This document shows positions 9,405 to 62,239 of a stretch of 64,000 nt of DNA, piece by piece. The first letter of the stretch is position 1; every line of letters starts with the position of its first letter. Under the pieces are notes generated by a model. It saw only the letters and a program-made list of their open reading frames with translations, was not told the origin of the DNA and did not search any database. This DNA is from Desulfobulbus oligotrophicus (GTDB lineage Bacteria > Desulfobacterota > Desulfobulbia > Desulfobulbales > Desulfobulbaceae): assembly GCF_016446285.1 (NCBI RefSeq), contig NZ_CP054140.1:1531501-1595500 (forward strand). Direction: 5' to 3'. The position numbers and the translations under genes were made by a program.

Positions 9405-10709
9405 ATGCCTGAAGAAAATTTCTTCGACCGAACCGCAGAGTTAATCATTGATGGTAAGTCTCATTATTTACCTATTCTTGAAGGAATCGAGGGAGATAAA
9501 TCCATTGATGTCAGCGACTTATTAGTCGATACCGGGTACACAGTGTATGATACCGGATACAAGAATTCAGCCTCCTGCTGCAGTACTATTACCTATCTTG
9601 ACGGTGATAGAGGTATCCTTCGTTATCGCGGGTACAACATTGAGGACCTGGCATCCCGCTGTCTGTTCATCGAGGTGGCGTACCTGTTGCTCCACAACAA
9701 GCTGCCGAATCGGGTGGAGCTGGAAAATTTTCGTACCATGCTTGAAGAGCATGCCCTTATTCATGAAGACATGGTACATTTTTTAGACAAGTTTCCGCCC
9801 CATGCCTCACCGATGTCGATCCTGTCGGTGATGGTCAACAGCCTGCACAACTTTTACCCGGAAATGAGTGCTGATCCGCTGGAAAATATTGATCTGACCG
9901 CCAGCCGACTCATTTCAAAAATTCGTACCATTGCCGCTTTTTCTTATAAGAAGTCCATTGGGCAGCCTCTGGTCTACCCTCGAAATGACCTCTCCTACTG
10001 CGGCAACTTTCTGAACATGATGTTCGATACACCAGTCAGACCGTACATTGTTCTTCCGGAGATCGTTGCCGCCCTCAATAAACTGCTGATTCTTCATGCA
10101 GATCACGAACAAAACTGCTCAACTTCGGCCGTCCGCCTGGTTGGCAGCTCCGGAGGAAATCTGTACTCTTCCATCTCTGCAGGCATCAATGCCTTGTGGG
10201 GACCTCTGCACGGCGGCGCCAATGAGGCGGTTATTCATATGCTGGAAGCCATTCATAAGGATAACAATAACTATAAAAAATATATCGCCAAGGCAAAAGA
10301 CCGCAGGGATCCTTTCCGTCTTTCTGGATTTGGACATCGTGTTTATCGAACCTTTGATCCAAGGGGAACAATTATTAAAGATGCGTGCGATGGTATTCTC
10401 ACGATTCTCAATTTTGAAGATCCGCTCATGGATATTGCGCGTAATCTTGAAGAGATCGTGCTCAATGACCCCTATTTTGTCAGTCGGAATCTCTATCCGA
10501 ACATCGATTTTTATTCAGGCATTATCTACCGCGCCCTGGGGATCCCAACCAATATGTTTACGGTTATGTTTGCTTTGGGAAGATTACCTGGTTGGATTGC
10601 GCAGTGGAAGGAGATGCGTGAAGATCCGGAGACCAAGATATATCGTCCTCGTCAGATCTATATCGGCTCACCTGCCCGCGAATTTGTTCCCCTGGGGCAG
10701 CGTACCTGA
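9405..10709 (+). CDS. gltA: Citrate synthase
   Basis: This 434-residue type II-sized citrate synthase condenses acetyl-CoA and oxaloacetate. The three catalytic regions are visible: GPLHGGANEAV (His), GFGHRVYRTFDPRG (His/Arg) and PNIDFYSG (Asp). The frame is open from a TTG at 9351, but the ATG at 9405 follows GGAG by 8 nt and is preferred. It is a standalone gene; a promoter-like sequence and a terminator-like hairpin lie in its leader. Confidence 0.93.
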   Translation: MPEENFFDRTAELIIDGKSHYLPILEGIEGDKSIDVSDLLVDTGYTVYDTGYKNSASCCSTITYLDGDRGILRYRGYNIEDLASRCLFIEVAYLLLHNKLPNRVELENFRTMLEEHALIHEDMVHFLDKFPPHASPMSILSVMVNSLHNFYPEMSADPLENIDLTASRLISKIRTIAAFSYKKSIGQPLVYPRNDLSYCGNFLNMMFDTPVRPYIVLPEIVAALNKLLILHADHEQNCSTSAVRLVGSSGGNLYSSISAGINALWGPLHGGANEAVIHMLEAIHKDNNNYKKYIAKAKDRRDPFRLSGFGHRVYRTFDPRGTIIKDACDGILTILNFEDPLMDIARNLEEIVLNDPYFVSRNLYPNIDFYSGIIYRALGIPTNMFTVMFALGRLPGWIAQWKEMREDPETKIYRPRQIYIGSPAREFVPLGQRT

Positions 10710-16507: not shown

Positions 16508-17635
16508 TTACTGCTGACCGCCCTGCACAGGAAAGCTGCGCATCCGTACATTCATGATAAGACCAATGGCCGCCATGGTGGTCAGCAGCGAAGACCCACC
16601 GTAACTGAAAATAGGCAGCGGTACACCAACCACCGGTAAAAAGCCCATTATCATAAACAGGTTGATCAAAGCCTGCCAGAAAATCAGGGCAACACAGCCA
16701 AAGGCGAGAATAGAGCCCAGCTTGTCTTTGGCTGACATCGCCACATTCAATCCCCAGATCAGCAAAAAGAAATAGCAGCTGAGCAGAAACAGAGAGCCGG
16801 CAAAACCCCACTCCTCAGCCCAGATCGCAAAGGCGAAATCCGTATGTTTTTCCGGTAAGAATTGGAGGTGCCCCTGTGTACCGTCGAGGAACCCCTTGCC
16901 GAACATCTTGCCACTGCCAACAGCGATTTTAGACTGCTCGATCTGGTAGCCGTGGTTCATGATATCAGCCTCTGGATTGAGGAAGGTCTCAATGCGTTGG
17001 CGCTGATAATCTTTGAGCAGGAATTTCCATGCGAAAACAACACTGCCAATAGCCATGGAGCCGAGAATGACCAGGGTTGTCCAGCGTAGCCTGACATACA
17101 AGGTCATGGAAACGAAAAGGATGCAGCAGATGAGTGCCGTGCCGAGATCCGGCTGTTTAAGAATCAGCACAAAGGGCAGCGCTATAAGAATCCCGGGTTT
17201 GATAAGATCACGCAGGCGGTACCCGCCCGGCGCATCGGTTTTGGCAAAGCAGGCAGCGAGTACGAGAATGAGGGAGAGTTTTGCCGGTTCAGAGGGTTGG
17301 AGGTTGAAAAAACCAAGATCAATCCAGCGCTGGGCTCCGGATATGGGATTGACGAACAGCAGGGTGTACAACAGTAATAGCAGGATGGCCGCATAGAGCG
17401 CATAGCTCAGTTTGATGACTTTATGGTAGTCATGAAAAAGGATGAGGAGCATGGTTGCTAGGCCGAAGGTAAAGAAGAGCAACTGCTTGTAAAAGATCTG
17501 TGAGGCTCCTTTTTCGGGGATGTACGTCGAACTGTACAGGTTGATGAAAGACAGAGTGGCGACGATGAAGAGCATCATCAGCATGACCCAGTCAAAATTT
17601 TGCAGAAGACGTCGGTCAAAATGAAACATATTCAT
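16508..17635 (-). CDS. rodA: Rod-shape peptidoglycan polymerase RodA (SEDS family)
   Basis: This 375-residue polytopic SEDS glycosyltransferase has about ten transmembrane helices. Family blocks are GAQRWIDLGFFNLQPSE and the C-terminal FSYGGSSLLTTMAAIGLIMN. It polymerises lipid II during elongation together with PBP2, encoded immediately upstream; its start overlaps the mrdA stop. It is the last gene of the mreBCD-mrdA-rodA group. Confidence 0.95.
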   Translation of the reverse strand: MNMFHFDRRLLQNFDWVMLMMLFIVATLSFINLYSSTYIPEKGASQIFYKQLLFFTFGLATMLLILFHDYHKVIKLSYALYAAILLLLLYTLLFVNPISGAQRWIDLGFFNLQPSEPAKLSLILVLAACFAKTDAPGGYRLRDLIKPGILIALPFVLILKQPDLGTALICCILFVSMTLYVRLRWTTLVILGSMAIGSVVFAWKFLLKDYQRQRIETFLNPEADIMNHGYQIEQSKIAVGSGKMFGKGFLDGTQGHLQFLPEKHTDFAFAIWAEEWGFAGSLFLLSCYFFLLIWGLNVAMSAKDKLGSILAFGCVALIFWQALINLFMIMGFLPVVGVPLPIFSYGGSSLLTTMAAIGLIMNVRMRSFPVQGGQQ

Positions 17636-23810: not shown

Positions 23811-25304
23811 AGTCGTCCGTGAAAAACTCTTAATATTCTGAAATATATAGATAAATGATGAAAAGTATAGCACTGTAAATTGCAGGATATTGCACTTTTC
23901 CCCTTCAATTTCTGGTGATTTTCGATGCAGCCGAAGAAGCAGATTTCCAGCCCCCAGTTGGACATGTTCCGTAACCGTCTGGAGAGTATTCTCAACCATC
24001 GTCATGAGTTGTACCAGCTAAGCAGACTGATTGACTGGGGAGTGTTTGAAAGCGAGTTTGGCAAGCTGTACTCTGAGGAAGGCCGGCCGGGGCTCCCGAT
24101 TCGTTTGCTCGTAGGCCTGACCTACCTGAGTCATGCGTTCAACACGTCGGACGAAGAGACAGTACGGCGGTGGGTGGAGAACCCGTACCATCAATATTTC
24201 TGCGGGGAAGAGTACTTTTGTCATGCGTTACCGATCGATCCGTCTTCGTTGAGTCGCTGGCGGAAGAGGATAGGTGAGCAGGGATCGGAATTGATCCTGA
24301 AGCTGACTGTGCAGGCGGGCTTGGCGAGTGGAGCGGTTGCACCGACGAGTTTGGCGCGGGTCATTGTTGATACGACTGTTCAGGAAAAGGCCATTGCGTT
24401 TCCGACCGATTCACGATTGTACAACCGCAGTCGGGAACGACTGATCAAGTTGGCTGCGGTTTGGGGCATTCGTCTTCGGCAGAGTTACTCCCGTCTTGGA
24501 CGTCAGGCCTTGTTGAAGGCCGGCCGGTATTTTCACGCCCGCCAAACCCGAAGAGCCCGTCGGGAGGTAAAACGGCTGAAGACCTATCTGGGCAGGGTGT
24601 ATCGGGACATTGTGCGCAAGATCGAAGGGCAGCAGGCGCTTGGCCCTGTTTTTCATCCGGAGCTTATGCTGGCGGGGCGGTTGTTGACGCAGCAGAAACA
24701 GGACAAGAACAAGCTCTACAGCCTGCATGCACCGGAAGTCGAATGCATTGCCAAGGGCAAGGCACACAAGAAGTACGAGTTCGGGGTCAAGGTGAGCGTG
24801 GCCACCGCCAATCGAGACAACTTCGTGGTGGGCATGTTGGCTGAACCTGGCAATCCCTATGATGGCCACACCCTGGGCAGGGCCATTGAGCAGGTGCAGC
24901 GGATCACGGGTTGTTTGGTTGAGCGCAGCTTTGTTGACCGGGGTTACCGTGGTCACAACCTCAAAGACCCGCAGGTCTTGATCTCCGGTCGCAGACAGGG
25001 GATGACGCCGCAAATGAAAAAAGAACTGAAGAGGCGCAGCGCTGTTGAGCCGGTGATCGGTCACATGAAGACGGACGGCAAGCTTGGACGCAATTACCTG
25101 CTGGGTACGTTGGGTGACACCATCAATGCCCTGCTTTGCGGCGCAGGGCACAATATCCGCCTGATCCTCAAGAAGTTGAGGGAAAGGTTGTTTCTTCTTT
25201 TTACCGGATTGCTTTTGGTCCTCTGGTGCCGCTTCGATGGGCAAAAAAAGGGTGCCGGAGCGATCGTCCCGGCAATATGAAAAAAGGCTTTTTCAAGGAC
25301 GACT
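23811..25304 (+). mobile_element. IS5-like insertion sequence, 1494 bp, with 5-bp target duplication
   Basis: The ends are inverted repeats: AGTCGTCCGTGAAAAA at the left and AGTCGTCCTTGAAAAA at the right when read inward. They match at 15 of 16 positions, with a few weaker matches beyond. AGGAT flanks both sides (23806-23810 and 25305-25309). A single transposase gene fills the element. The clean ends, intact duplication and undamaged transposase suggest a fairly recent insertion into the cassette gene. Confidence 0.9.
23925..25280 (+). CDS. IS5-family-like DDE transposase
   Basis: This full-length 451-residue transposase has an N-terminal DUF772-like region (about 30-115: SRLIDWGVFESEFGKLYS, then PIRLLVGLTYLSHAFNTSDE). 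The catalytic core has candidate DDE residues at Asp149 (RVIVDTTVQ), Asp in SFVDRGYRGH, and Glu in AVEPVIGHMKTDGKLGRN, which keeps the YREK-like spacing of the family. It is the sole gene of the element at 23811-25304 and is opposite in strand to the cassette gene it interrupts. I do not assign a subgroup. Confidence 0.9.
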   Translation: MQPKKQISSPQLDMFRNRLESILNHRHELYQLSRLIDWGVFESEFGKLYSEEGRPGLPIRLLVGLTYLSHAFNTSDEETVRRWVENPYHQYFCGEEYFCHALPIDPSSLSRWRKRIGEQGSELILKLTVQAGLASGAVAPTSLARVIVDTTVQEKAIAFPTDSRLYNRSRERLIKLAAVWGIRLRQSYSRLGRQALLKAGRYFHARQTRRARREVKRLKTYLGRVYRDIVRKIEGQQALGPVFHPELMLAGRLLTQQKQDKNKLYSLHAPEVECIAKGKAHKKYEFGVKVSVATANRDNFVVGMLAEPGNPYDGHTLGRAIEQVQRITGCLVERSFVDRGYRGHNLKDPQVLISGRRQGMTPQMKKELKRRSAVEPVIGHMKTDGKLGRNYLLGTLGDTINALLCGAGHNIRLILKKLRERLFLLFTGLLLVLWCRFDGQKKGAGAIVPAI

Positions 25305-25964: not shown

Positions 25965-25993
25965 ATTATATTTCACAATGAAATGATGCTTAA
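25965..25993 (-). promoter_or_regulatory. Possible cassette promoter (Pc)
   Basis: The minus strand has a perfect TATAAT (plus 25965-25970) with a weak TTAAGC 17 bp upstream, overlapping the integrase stop. A separate perfect TTGACA (plus 25955-25960) has no good -10 at the right spacing. Either could drive cassette transcription leftward. The evidence is weak. Confidence 0.3.
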
Positions 25994-26370
25994 AAATCCA
26001 ATGGGCTTTTTGCCTCTTTTGCCGTCTTGCCTGGTATGCAGTGGGTATACATCATCGTTGTTCTCACATCGGTGTGGGCCGGCATCGTTTGGATTGTCCG
26101 TATGTCGTAGTCAGCTTGTAAAAGATGGGTCGCGAAACTGTGGCGAAAAGTGTGCGATTTAACGCAGTTAACGAGTTTTGCCATCCATACGGCTCTTTTC
26201 AACGCGCCCTGAACGTGCGATTCATGCAGGTGATATCGTCTCCATTCTTTTGTTCCTGGAATCGGGGTCAGTTCCTTTTGCGGCAGCAACCATTGCCGGA
26301 TGAAATATTTTACAGCGGCCGGATACTTCTTTTCGAGTGAACCGACAAGAAATACTCCGGCATAGCCTGT
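25990..26370 (-). pseudogene. intI: Integron integrase IntI, N-terminally truncated relic
   Basis: About 125 residues of a tyrosine recombinase C-terminus remain. It starts [18 protein letters not shown] and shows [11 protein letters not shown] (an IntI-specific region), HTFRHSFATHLLQADYDIRT (box II His and Arg), AHTDVRTTMMYTH (His and the catalytic Tyr) and a final SPLDF, as in integron integrases. The box I arginine and the whole N-terminal half are missing. The frame continues to 26478 but loses similarity at about 26370. The gene is on the same strand as the cassettes with its 3' end toward them, opposite to class 1 integrons. It is almost certainly inactive. Confidence 0.8.
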
Positions 26371-26474
26371 TGCCCATGACTCCCACGGTCTGGATGGGCA
26401 AAAGCACGGCAAAGGACTGCCACACTTTGCGGTACCAGCCGCTGTCCTCCATCTCTTCCAGGACAAGGGTATCC

Positions 26475-28475
26475 TCAACCGGGCAAGAGAATGTCGGCTT
26501 CGTTAATGGTAACCAGAGCCTCTTCCTGATACAGCTGGTTTAAGAACTGTTTGTGCTGTTGCCAATCGATACGACCGTCTCGTTCCAGGGCTGCCTGGTA
26601 TGTTGCTATAGAGGTGGGCTGCTCAAGCAGACGGAGTGTGGCTCGGTAAAAGCTGTGGGGTATGGTGATGATGCCGCTGCCGGTGAACAGACAGACCGTG
26701 CGTTGGTAGGGGATCGGCTGTTGTTCGCTGGAGCTCAACTGTTGCAGCAGGGGGAGGAGGTCAAGATAATCCTGCTCGTGTATACTCATGCGACTGCGGT
26801 CGAGCTGCACCTTATCGGCATCACAGAGCGCGGGGCGGGTACTGGTTTCCGGTTCAGGTGCCAGGGTGAGTTTGTTGACACTAAACCGGATGAGATCTGG
26901 CAAAAAGGGTGGTCGGCGCAGTGAACTGCTGCCAAGTTCTTTGCCCAGTTCCTGGATAATGGAGACCAGTGGTGGTGCCGCGAAAAAAGTGGTTGCTTGC
27001 TCGTCTGCCAGATAGGGTTTGAGGACTGTTGACAGGATCTGCAGCCATTGGGTCTCCATAGAGGCCAGTAGAATATGGAATAACTCATGGCAGTACTTTT
27101 CGATCAGTTCAAGAACCAGCAGGAGGGCCTCGTGTTGGACCAGAAAATCCTCTTCTGCCTGTGGGACCAGTAAGCAGAGGTTATCGACTGGGAAACGATA
27201 ACGAATTCCCCTGTCAACCTGCTCTTTTAATAAAAGAAATTGAGAAAAATCACGCGGATTTTTCTGGTGCTCCTCCCAGTACCGACTGGCTATGTCACTG
27301 GAGAGATGATCGTAGCGCACATGCACCGGAAGCCCCTCACGTATCATTCGATGTTTAAAGAGGAGGATAGCTTTGATCTCCTCTTCCAGGTCGCGGGTGG
27401 ACAGGGTTGGATGATAGCGGCTGAAGAAGATCTCTATCCGGACCTTACCGTTAAAAAACTCGGCCACAGTGTGCAGGTTATCTTCCATGGCTGCAAGTTC
27501 ATAAGTATATCCCCGCTTGATTCTCTCCCGGTGCGTATTCACGGTCACCTCTGGAGAAAATTCGAATATCGGTCGCGTGTTTTCCCAGTGAAAGGCGTAC
27601 TGATACAGCTTAAGAAACTCCTCATCAAGAAGATGCCAGGCCCCATAGTTGAGGGTAAAGTGGCCGCGCAGATCCGGATCATCACCAATGGCCTGAAACA
27701 AGGTTTTGATCATGACAGGGTCGTTTTCGTAGCAGAGATAAAGCACCGTGGTCCACTGTTTGAGCTGATGCAGGTCGGCAAGGGTTGAGGGGAGAGCCCG
27801 TACAATGGGGAGGGGGCGACCGGAATGAAGTCGGAAGGCATGACGGCTGCCGCCGCAGTAGGCACAGTCAAAAATACAGCCGCGGCCAAGCAGGAGGGGG
27901 AAGCCGAGCTTGCTGTTGATTTTATCGATATAGATATCAGCGTCGAGCAGATGTGAACAGTCGGTAAAGGTCAGCTGATCAAACAACTTTTGGTCGATTA
28001 ACCACGTGCTATCGTTGCGTCGTACTGTCCCTTCCGTATCTCTCCAGACCAGATTGGCAATTGATTGCCTGGCGTGGCCTTGAACAAGTTGCAACACCGG
28101 TTCTTCCGGATCGCCGGTCACGACACAGTCAAGCGCCGGGACACTGCGCAGAAGATCGTCAGCAAAATAAGAGGCTGTGAACCCGCCTGCAAAGGTCAAA
28201 ACCGTGTTGCTCCAGTTCCGGACCAGCTGCAGGGCTTCCAGCAGGCCATGGGCTGTTTCCTGCCAGTGACAGGCCAGCCCGACATGGGTGGGTTGCAGTG
28301 TGGTGAGCACCCTGGTGAGTTGTTTGTGCAAGGTATCCTGAGAGTAGAGTGCCGGATTAAACAAACGGGTTTCGACTCCCTGTCTGCTGAGAAGGTCGCA
28401 GAGACCGAAGCATCCCATGGGGATGTAGAAGAAATAGGGGCTGGCACAGTTGATGAGCAGAAGGCGTGGTGACAT
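26475..28475 (-). CDS. B12-binding-domain radical SAM protein
   Basis: This 666-residue protein has an N-terminal cobalamin-binding-like Rossmann region (start [31 protein letters not shown] about residues 110-125). The radical SAM core cluster is [13 protein letters not shown] (CxxxCxxC). The C-terminal third, about residues 430-666, is a long unassigned extension. The ORF extends upstream to 28553, but the ATG at 28475, 13 bp after the stop of the GTPase gene, fits the family start. Its substrate is unknown. Co-transcription with the DUF3482 and DUF2868 genes is likely from spacing. Confidence 0.82.
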
Positions 28476-59717: not shown

Positions 59718-60386
59718 TTAATCAGAGTACTCTGTATTTTCCTGCGGGATCGGCTGATCAGTGGGGCGATGTCCGTTTTTCTTTTCCGGCCTGGATGAAG
59801 GATGATCAGCACTCCGCCTGCGTATACGCTGGATTTCGGAATCAAGGTTCATGGTCAGATAGATGTGCTTGTGCGGATGGCCGAATCCCTGTTTCCGGAA
59901 AAAATGGAGGGCACCCAGGTTCTCAGCAGAGGTGTCTGCCAGGAGCATGCGAATGCCCCGTTCGATCATAAGATCCTTGAACTTCTGGAAGAGTTTGTCG
60001 GCAACGCCGTGCCGCTGGACGTCCGGATGGACCCCCAGCCAGATCAGGTAGCCGTATTTCCAGGCGGAATGGGATTTGATAATGGTTGTCCCCAGTAAAA
60101 AACCCTTCAGCTGCTCTTCGACCTCTGCCACAAGGCAGAACTCCGTATCACTGTGAAAAAGCCCCACCACTTCGTAAACATCCCAGGTCCGATAGGTGTT
60201 GGGCGCCTCATCAGCCGTGTAGAGCATCTCTCCCAAATGAAAAACCGGGGCTATGTCATCCACCTCCATCTCGCGTATCCGAACTGAAACACGCCTCTCT
60301 TTTCCTTCTGAAGATCCCACAGTATCACTTTGTCTGATTGTTGATCGTTTTCGGATCCGGTCTCTGGAGATCCGGTCCTGAAGCAT
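59718..60386 (-). CDS. GNAT-family N-acetyltransferase
   Basis: This 222-residue protein has a GNAT fold at about residues 35-180. The acetyl-CoA motif region is LGVHPDVQRHGVADKLFQKF, followed by MLLADTSAENLGALHFFRKQ. The tail (RRRSADHPSSRPEKKNG) is charged and variable. The N-terminal 35 residues are untypical, so the true start may be the Met in IREMEVDD. The acceptor is unknown. It stands upstream of mgtA in the same orientation. Confidence 0.82.
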   Translation of the reverse strand: MLQDRISRDRIRKRSTIRQSDTVGSSEGKERRVSVRIREMEVDDIAPVFHLGEMLYTADEAPNTYRTWDVYEVVGLFHSDTEFCLVAEVEEQLKGFLLGTTIIKSHSAWKYGYLIWLGVHPDVQRHGVADKLFQKFKDLMIERGIRMLLADTSAENLGALHFFRKQGFGHPHKHIYLTMNLDSEIQRIRRRSADHPSSRPEKKNGHRPTDQPIPQENTEYSD

Positions 60387-60871
60387 TCTTGAAGTGAGCT
60401 ATAATAAATTCAGTTGCACATGATGTCCAGAGTGCGAGGGGCTGACGGTGCATTTATCTGATCGGGCAGGGGGGAAGGAATTGAACAGCAGGCGCTGAAG
60501 CAGTGGTCTGCGGCCATACGATAGTCTGCCGGGGCAGAGAACGATCAAAAGCTGTGTGCAGAGGGTTGACCGGGTAACAGGATGTTTCTTCTATTCAGAT
60601 CGAATAATGATGTTTGAGTATTTAATTCGGATGTGGCTGAAATATGGTCGAAAAACAGCATGTAAAACAGTGTTTCCGTACTTGGGATTGAATACTATAA
60701 ATGACGATGGTATATCCTGTTTCAATTGTTCATGATAACAATGTTAATCAGGACCAGTTCTGTAAAATGCAAGATATAGTAGTCTGTCACTATAGGTTTA
60801 TGCTGCTGCTGGAGACGAAAAATGGCGATATCAAATAAAAACCGAAACGTTATACGCTTGGAGTCTAACTC
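60387..60871. other. Intergenic region before the Abi-alpha gene
   Basis: The 485 bp are AT-richer than the surroundings, especially 60590-60860, and have no supported gene. GTTATAC at 60849-60855, just before the gene, could be a cassette-start core, but it does not match GTTRRRY perfectly. Confidence 0.4.
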
Positions 60872-61597
60872 ATGAACTGGTTGGAAAACCTTTCAAAAAT
60901 ACTTCCTGTGGACAAGATCTACGAGGATATCGCGCAACCAGCATTTCGGGAAATCGGCGATGCTGCACGAAGTAGTGTCAGAGCTGCCCGTTTCCTTCTT
61001 GCTCCCGTAGACTATCTCGCTGCTCACCAGGTTCGATGGCAGCGATGGCTGAAGAAAATAAATGACCAAGTCCCTGAAAAAAATCTAATCCTTGCTCACC
61101 CTCAGCTAACAGGTCCAGCAATTGAGGGGCTGCGATACCTTGAGGAAGAAAATATTCTGGCGGAGCTGTTTGTTAACCTTTTAGCGCGATCCATTGACAA
61201 AGACCGTGTTAGTGAAGCGCATCCCGCCTTTGCAAAGATCATCGCTCAGCTTTCACCGGATGAGGCGCTGATCATCTATCTTTTGAACAAAGAAGAACGA
61301 ATATTAAAGCAATACTCCAAGTACTTTCACAAAACTTCGACATTTGGCCCGAGGGAAATAGTGGAGAATCATTTTCCCCTCGCTAAACTGGCTTACCCGC
61401 AGAACTATTTCATGTACATGGATCATCTTTTCAGTCTGAACTTGGCCGGTGTGTGGCAGCATGGAAATCAAGAGCCAATTATGAAAAATGGGCTCCAAAC
61501 AGGAGTAAACATCACTAGCTACGCTCAACTGACTCCGTTTGGAAAGCTTTTTTCCAAAGCATGCCTTCCGAATAATATCGATGAATGGACGATATAA
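60872..61597 (+). CDS. DUF4393 (Abi-alpha) protein, putative phage-defence gene in an orphan cassette
   Basis: This 241-residue protein has the DUF4393 layout. It starts MNWLENLSKILPVDKIYEDI; an early helix (SSVRAARFLLAPVDY) and an IEGLRYLEEENILAELFVNL region follow, with AHPAFAKIIAQLSPDEA in the middle. The family is named after abortive infection alpha, and a defence role is family knowledge rather than seen here. GGAG is 8 nt before the ATG. The A/T content differs from the neighbours, and a degenerate attC-like palindrome follows at 61764, so acquisition as an integron cassette is plausible. Confidence 0.75.
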   Translation: MNWLENLSKILPVDKIYEDIAQPAFREIGDAARSSVRAARFLLAPVDYLAAHQVRWQRWLKKINDQVPEKNLILAHPQLTGPAIEGLRYLEEENILAELFVNLLARSIDKDRVSEAHPAFAKIIAQLSPDEALIIYLLNKEERILKQYSKYFHKTSTFGPREIVENHFPLAKLAYPQNYFMYMDHLFSLNLAGVWQHGNQEPIMKNGLQTGVNITSYAQLTPFGKLFSKACLPNNIDEWTI

Positions 61598-61763
61598 CAA
61601 CTGGATAGATGGTGGTCTGAAAACTGGCTGCACCTCAATACCGCTGGTGAATTTCAACGTCAGGCACAATGAAAGAGGGACCATGTTTGTCTGAAATGTA
61701 GCTGCTGTTGTCAGTCAATCCAAGTAAGAGGTGGATTTACTTCCTGGGCACCACGTGGGGCTC

Positions 61764-61824
61764 GCGCCTAATCACTCATTCAAACCAACGCCGTTTTGCG
61801 GCGCGGCTTAACTTTAACAGTACC
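61764..61824 (+). repeat. Degenerate attC-like site
   Basis: The sequence begins GCGCCTAA and contains ACGCCGTTTTGCGGCGCGGC followed by TTAACTTTAAC. It follows the classic short attC layout, in which a CGCCGC...GCGGCG hairpin precedes a GGCTTAA stretch. The distal GTTRRRY core has decayed to AACAGTACC. It lies 166 bp downstream of the Abi-alpha stop and 13 bp before the DUF302 start. Confidence 0.55.
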
Positions 61825-61837
61825 TGGCAAAGATCCT

Positions 61838-62239
61838 ATGGCATCATCAGACATCATCAACATCAAAAGTCCGTACCCTTTTTTCGAGACTGTGCAGCGT
61901 CTGCTTGCTGCATTTGCAGCAAAGAACATCAAGGTTTTTGCAACCATTGATCAGCAGGCCGAGGCCAGTGCTGTGGGGCTGACAATGGAACCAACCACTT
62001 TGATCATCTTCGGCAACCCGCAGGCCGGCACACCGCTCATGCTTGCCAACCCGCAGGTCGGTGTTGATCTGCCGCTCAAGGTGCTCATCAGCGAGTCAAC
62101 TCCTGGAGAGGTTGTTGTCTTCTTCACTGCTGCAACAGCCATCATCAAGCGTCACGGGCTGCCATCCGAACTCACTGCAAACCTGGCAGCAGCTGAGCGT
62201 TTGATCGAGGCTACGCTGAGCAGGAGCACTGACTCCTGA
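61838..62239 (+). CDS. DUF302-domain protein
   Basis: This 133-residue protein starts MASSDIINIKSPYPFFETVQ and contains FATIDQQAEASAVGLTMEPT, then LIIFGNPQAGTPLM, the hallmark of DUF302. The family has a TBP-like fold and no settled function. The frame extends to 61796 within the attC-like sequence, so the ATG at 61838 is preferred, though its ribosome-binding site is weak. It may be the first host gene past the cassette or a cassette passenger itself. Confidence 0.85.
   Translation: MASSDIINIKSPYPFFETVQRLLAAFAAKNIKVFATIDQQAEASAVGLTMEPTTLIIFGNPQAGTPLMLANPQVGVDLPLKVLISESTPGEVVVFFTAATAIIKRHGLPSELTANLAAAERLIEATLSRSTDS

Follow-up and report, generated by a model that had tools for sequence, protein, structure and literature searches.

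The Abi-alpha (DUF4393) locus of Desulfobulbus oligotrophicus is fairly likely to be a stranded integron gene cassette, carrying what by homology is probably a defence gene. Within the window (the whole stretch of 64,000 nucleotides that was analysed, positions 1,531,501-1,595,500 on a single 3.10-Mb contig), the gene is followed on the + strand by one attC site that has decayed. Both lie between neighbours shared with a congener, in a genome where no intact integron integrase was found. Abi-alpha likely entered together with this attC.

The attC site

The palindrome at 61763-61828 (+ strand) displayed the layout of a short attC. It comprised an R''-like box GCCTAAT (61766-61772), which departs from the consensus RYYYAAC by AAT in place of AAC, an L'' box TTCAAACC (61779-61786), a stem ACGCCG/CGGCG within 61788-61803 and an L' box GGCTTAA (61805-61811), all on the + strand. 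The R' box (GTTRRRY), expected at about 61818-61824, was absent, and no GTT triplet for its core was found at 61812-61828. From R'' (61766) to L' (61811), 39 of 46 positions matched the consensus of the short class 1 (aadA/qacH) type, against maxima of 24-30 in 40 simulated 64-kb windows (first-order Markov). By blastn against plasmids (7.3 Gb), the palindrome matched the attCs behind qacH, aadA, sat2, aadB and aac(6')-IIa (best E 2e-6). Two covariance models, both built with the window site left out, detected it as well: R1, made from eight plasmid attCs, gave 32.7 bits (E 1e-4 genome-wide), and R2, made from congener and own-genome attCs together with three plasmid attCs, gave 37.9 bits (E 5.5e-7 in 174 kb).

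Judged by these matches, the palindrome is a genuine attC of the short aadA/qacH type that has partly decayed. The original prediction had placed a short-layout attC with a decayed terminal core at 61764-61824; the consensus match and the scores of both models agree with it, and the decay extends beyond the missing R' to the R'' box. Compared with the attCs of class 1 cassettes (qacH, aadA1, sat2, aac(6')-IIa), the window site has the same R'', L'', stem, L', spacing and sequence (39/46), but it lacks R' and its R'' is mutated. Because the R' half-site is gone, the site probably no longer recombines and would be a relic. Its single-stranded folding was not clearly above shuffles (z -1.4). Scans with R1 and R2 found no further attC upstream of 60849 or beyond the DUF302 gene that follows.

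The Abi-alpha gene and its protein

The gene at 60872-61597 (+ strand, 241 aa) belongs to Abi-alpha, as had been claimed from the DNA alone, with matches to the Pfam family PF14337/DUF4393 (E 2e-36, 126 bits, above the gathering threshold of 29), the PADLOC candidate defence family PDC-S47 (E 2.8e-36) and PHROG 2232 (E 1.6e-25). The differing composition that the same prediction ascribed to the gene was also recovered: its GC content is 45%, while the window averages 53%, which puts it at about the 2nd percentile among 726-bp windows. The gene is present in a single copy in its own genome, was found in none of the 36 relatives searched and had a match in just one other genome among 395 of the phylum. 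This rarity makes horizontal acquisition very probable. Of the relatives found by sequence, the closest are carried on viral contigs (at most 39% identity), so phage-borne transfer is possible. The one locus (L039) returned as a relative by a scan of genome contigs was rejected as a chance match within an unrelated long ORF. No promoter-like site was found upstream of the gene on the + strand.

The highest mean hydropathy of any 19 residues of the protein is 1.2, so it contains no strong transmembrane segment. Structure prediction from one sequence gave a pLDDT of 35, and an AlphaFold2 model from ten sequences gave 77, with residues 1-49 unreliable. Minus its N-terminal part, the model resembled PDB 3H35, which ranked first, and winged-helix proteins (Z about 7), with many winged-helix regulators scoring close behind 3H35. 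These predicted-structure scores are middling, and a mechanism cannot be named from them. A sequence search of the PDB with the protein gave no significant match.

AbiAlpha (EF2833, DUF4393) was defined in prophage 6 of Enterococcus faecalis V583; its expression advances lysis upon infection with phage Idefix by about 10 minutes and brings plaquing below 1e-8 (PMC6356687). Its authors discussed early holin triggering or loss of the proton-motive force, and likewise noted the structure 3H35 (PMC6356687). The window gene shares the Pfam family, the single-gene organisation and the 3H35-like predicted fold, but it is chromosomal, beside an attC relic and outside any recognised prophage, and its predicted activity is carried over by homology. 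By analogy with AbiAlpha of prophage 6, the protein would act as single-gene abortive infection, with early lysis and few phages released, and it may still defend its host.

The locus in a congener and the boundaries of the cassette

Among the relatives, the arrangement of GNAT, attC and DUF302 was found only in the congener G016 (contig C120). In the window, the ancestral left neighbour is a GNAT acetyltransferase gene (59718-60386, - strand). The DUF302 gene (61838-62239, + strand, E 1.9e-18) is, from its presence in G016, the ancestral right neighbour of the attC and lies outside the Abi-alpha cassette. The left DNA including the GNAT gene is 81% identical over 4.7 kb between the two species and DUF302 is 86% identical over 475 bp, with the same gene order. 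Abi-alpha is absent from the G016 locus, where 329 bp of unrelated DNA stand in its place. Neither of the two outcomes that the original prediction gave as refuting was observed, as attC models score the palindrome and synteny did not reveal an ancestral DUF4393-DUF302 pair. Comparing 60741-61766 of the window with 10294-10622 of G016 revealed no similarity beyond shuffled controls, the best reverse-strand match between the intervals (17 bp) being at noise level. No Abi-alpha leftovers were found in the G016 interval, and its 329-bp stretch had no other occurrence in the genus.

The attC of G016 aligns with that of the window (18.5 bits with R1, 25.7 bits with R2), has a deletion of 6-7 nt between L' and R' and a partly broken stem, and is followed after L' by sequence common to both species. 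Since G016 has the same decayed attC between the same flanks, the attC, as read from this alignment, was present before the two species diverged. The clean empty site that had been looked for in relatives did not appear, because in G016 the attC is retained and unrelated DNA of 329 bp occupies the place of the gene. The prediction of a deposited cassette thus stood in part: the attC scores and the foreign-like distribution of Abi-alpha favour it, whereas a simple insertion with a clean empty site found no support. A TTG start within the attC (window 61796-61838) would lengthen DUF302 by 14 residues, and this N-terminal extension is partly kept in G016 (GLTLTVP.K.PM.SSD); the 3' half of the attC may have been taken up into the DUF302 coding region.

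On the right side, homology between the window and G016 starts at R''. On the left side it stops at a GTT triplet (AACAATG followed by TTAATC, with the break between them), which is the left edge of an AT-rich leader (60743-60871, + strand, 38% GC). Judging from the density of GTT triplets, chance alone would place one within a base of a break in roughly one case of 17, and the coincidence is no more than suggestive. Two candidate 5' cores were recognised, GTTAATC (60743-60749) at the homology break and GTTATAC (60849-60855), 16 bp before the ATG. The second resembles the attC cores of congeners (GTTATGC) and leaves a leader as short as is typical of cassettes; it would be the more typical cassette core. 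When reverse-complemented, each matches R'' at 4 of 7 positions. The interval that separates the attC from the end of the Abi-alpha gene (61598-61765, + strand) holds no recognisable gene and has no counterpart in G016, and its 168 bp from stop to R'' exceed the usual spacing in a cassette. Downstream of the stop, a frame of 24 residues (QLDRWWSENWLHLNTAGEFQRQAQ) was considered as a gene remnant but gave no match.

Since the attC occurs in G016 but Abi-alpha does not, the gene possibly arrived later by another route. The attC would then be left over from an earlier and different cassette, and Abi-alpha a neighbour by chance, brought in with a prophage remnant or by illegitimate recombination, which we regard as rather unlikely. 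The 168-bp gap, the poor pairing of both candidate 5' cores with R'' and the viral contigs that hold the best sequence relatives would fit such a course, and a decayed attC could hardly take a new cassette. However, no phage or IS gene was recognised beside Abi-alpha in 60.4-62.2 kb, the homology with G016 breaks at the start of R'' and at a GTT core, and a homologue of Abi-alpha forms a canonical-looking cassette on a plasmid.

This plasmid, NZ_CP032092 of Pseudoalteromonas donghaensis, encodes an Abi-alpha homologue with 32% identity. A start box GTTAGGG (L074:3928) precedes the gene, an R'' box CCCTAAC (4799), the exact inverse complement of the start box, overlaps its stop, and an integron integrase lies about 2.8 kb upstream. 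The attC was recognised by reading these boxes, as it is of another type that R1 and R2 did not detect. From its boxes, the plasmid gene looks like a canonical cassette, which indicates that the Abi-alpha family travels as an integron cassette. In both genomes Abi-alpha is followed by an attC, but the plasmid cassette is canonical-looking and near an integrase, and the window one is not. The cassette reading of the window locus is preferred because NZ_CP032092 provides an independent Abi-alpha cassette of canonical appearance.

Under the preferred cassette reading, an integron of the genus's own type would have set a cassette between GNAT and DUF302 before the split from G016. In the window lineage, the intact Abi-alpha at the cassette spot would most likely be the cassette's own gene. 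Afterwards, the right half-site of the attC and the intact integrase of the genome would have been lost, leaving the cassette fixed in place, and in G016 Abi-alpha would have been lost or replaced, with the attC remnant left behind.

Compatible with either origin, Abi-alpha could here be a cargo gene with a function other than defence. The sole tested case found is the Enterococcus protein, a remote relative, but membership in a PADLOC candidate defence family and the phage-borne homologues make this unlikely. The palindrome is highly unlikely to be a plain terminator or a regulatory hairpin in front of DUF302 that resembles an attC by accident. It has a weak terminator match at 61790-61807, of a strength expected by chance, with T-rich DNA behind it, and sits directly upstream of DUF302 in two species, but the 39/46 match (blastn E 2e-6) extends from the stem to the spacers and unpaired boxes, Rfam gave no match, and folding does not look selected because the G016 stem is partly broken.

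Integrons and integrases elsewhere in the genome and genus

Attachment sites of the same type were found elsewhere in the genome with R1 and R2, as a three-site array at 244.4-246.2 kb (C1:244451, 245323 and 246124), a pair at 2172.9-2173.5 kb (2172888 and 2173500) and a single site at 2080.5 kb (2080515). Weaker attCs were detected near 1622 and 1634 kb; these degraded attC-like sites (L076:5161-5568 and 17179-17242) lie 29-41 kb from the Abi-alpha locus, and the first group adjoins a PIN-domain gene. Across the genus, R1 matched attCs in 9 of 24 genomes, the own genome included, with up to 84 bits, and integrons of the genus use the same type of attC as clinical class 1 cassettes. The integron integrase model scored above its cut-off in 9/24 genomes, and in one of the genus (G013) a 4.8-kb contig holds an intact IntI together with an attC. 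The window genome and G016 hold integrase fragments only and no full-score IntI; in the former, no integrase passes the cut-off and the integron-like matches are C-terminal fragments.

One such fragment lies in the window at 25990-26478 (- strand) and covers positions 189-313 of 315 of TIGR02249 (130 bits, cut-off 265). It is the integrase from which, in the original prediction, the cassette had been deposited about 35 kb away. The fragment is about 93% identical to those near 248, 253 and 256 kb (L011:12477-12908, L011:17378-17683 and L012:3-576). An IS lies near it at 23925-25280, and the fragments in the window and at 248 kb (L011:12477) adjoin copies of the same IS (93% identical). Because this integrase is one of several near-identical fragments, at least two of them beside the same IS, the 35-kb distance is, on these alignments, uninformative on cassette deposition.

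Cassettes outside integrons are known as CALINs, with a default threshold of two attCs (IntegronFinder 2.0, PMC9024848), and PMC12901181 cites Loot et al. 2024 for cassette insertion at chromosomal attG sites. The window cassette is likewise off-platform, but it has one decayed attC and no empty site was seen; with a single attC, the locus falls outside the default CALIN definition (at least two attCs without an intact integrase). Single decayed attCs, which default tools drop, can mark old cassette arrivals. According to the review PMC12409362, Darracq et al. 2025 presented chromosomal integrons as biobanks of antiphage systems. A defence gene as a cassette is common to these and to the window, but the window cassette would be an orphan and immobile, in a genome without an intact integrase. 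The storage of antiphage genes in integrons being already known, a stranded cassette would be a further example of a known process. The locus adds Abi-alpha as a likely cassette cargo, with one clear-looking plasmid case and one stranded chromosomal case. No paper naming both integrons and DUF4393 was found in a search that covered little of the subscription literature, so this carries little weight. More tentatively, Abi-alpha may be a recurrent cassette cargo in environmental bacteria, kept here as a fixed host gene after the attC and the integrase died.

Other integron-derived structures were observed in the genus. In the window genome, two IS copies in the same orientation (L077:3666-10163, C1:2169665-2176162; 99.6% identical over 1.34 kb) enclose two attCs with GNAT, unknown and hexapeptide acetyltransferase cassettes, which resembles integron cassettes in a composite-transposon-like unit. 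The three-attC array (L011:8452-10188) has no intact integrase, and two of its cassette proteins had no Pfam match. In the congener G012 (contig C71, L061:1490-1610), an attC broken in R'' is followed by GTGTACGCCCGGCATGGGCGTGATC...GGGGTGAAAGTCCCCTG, which we take to resemble the 5' end of a group IIC-attC intron.
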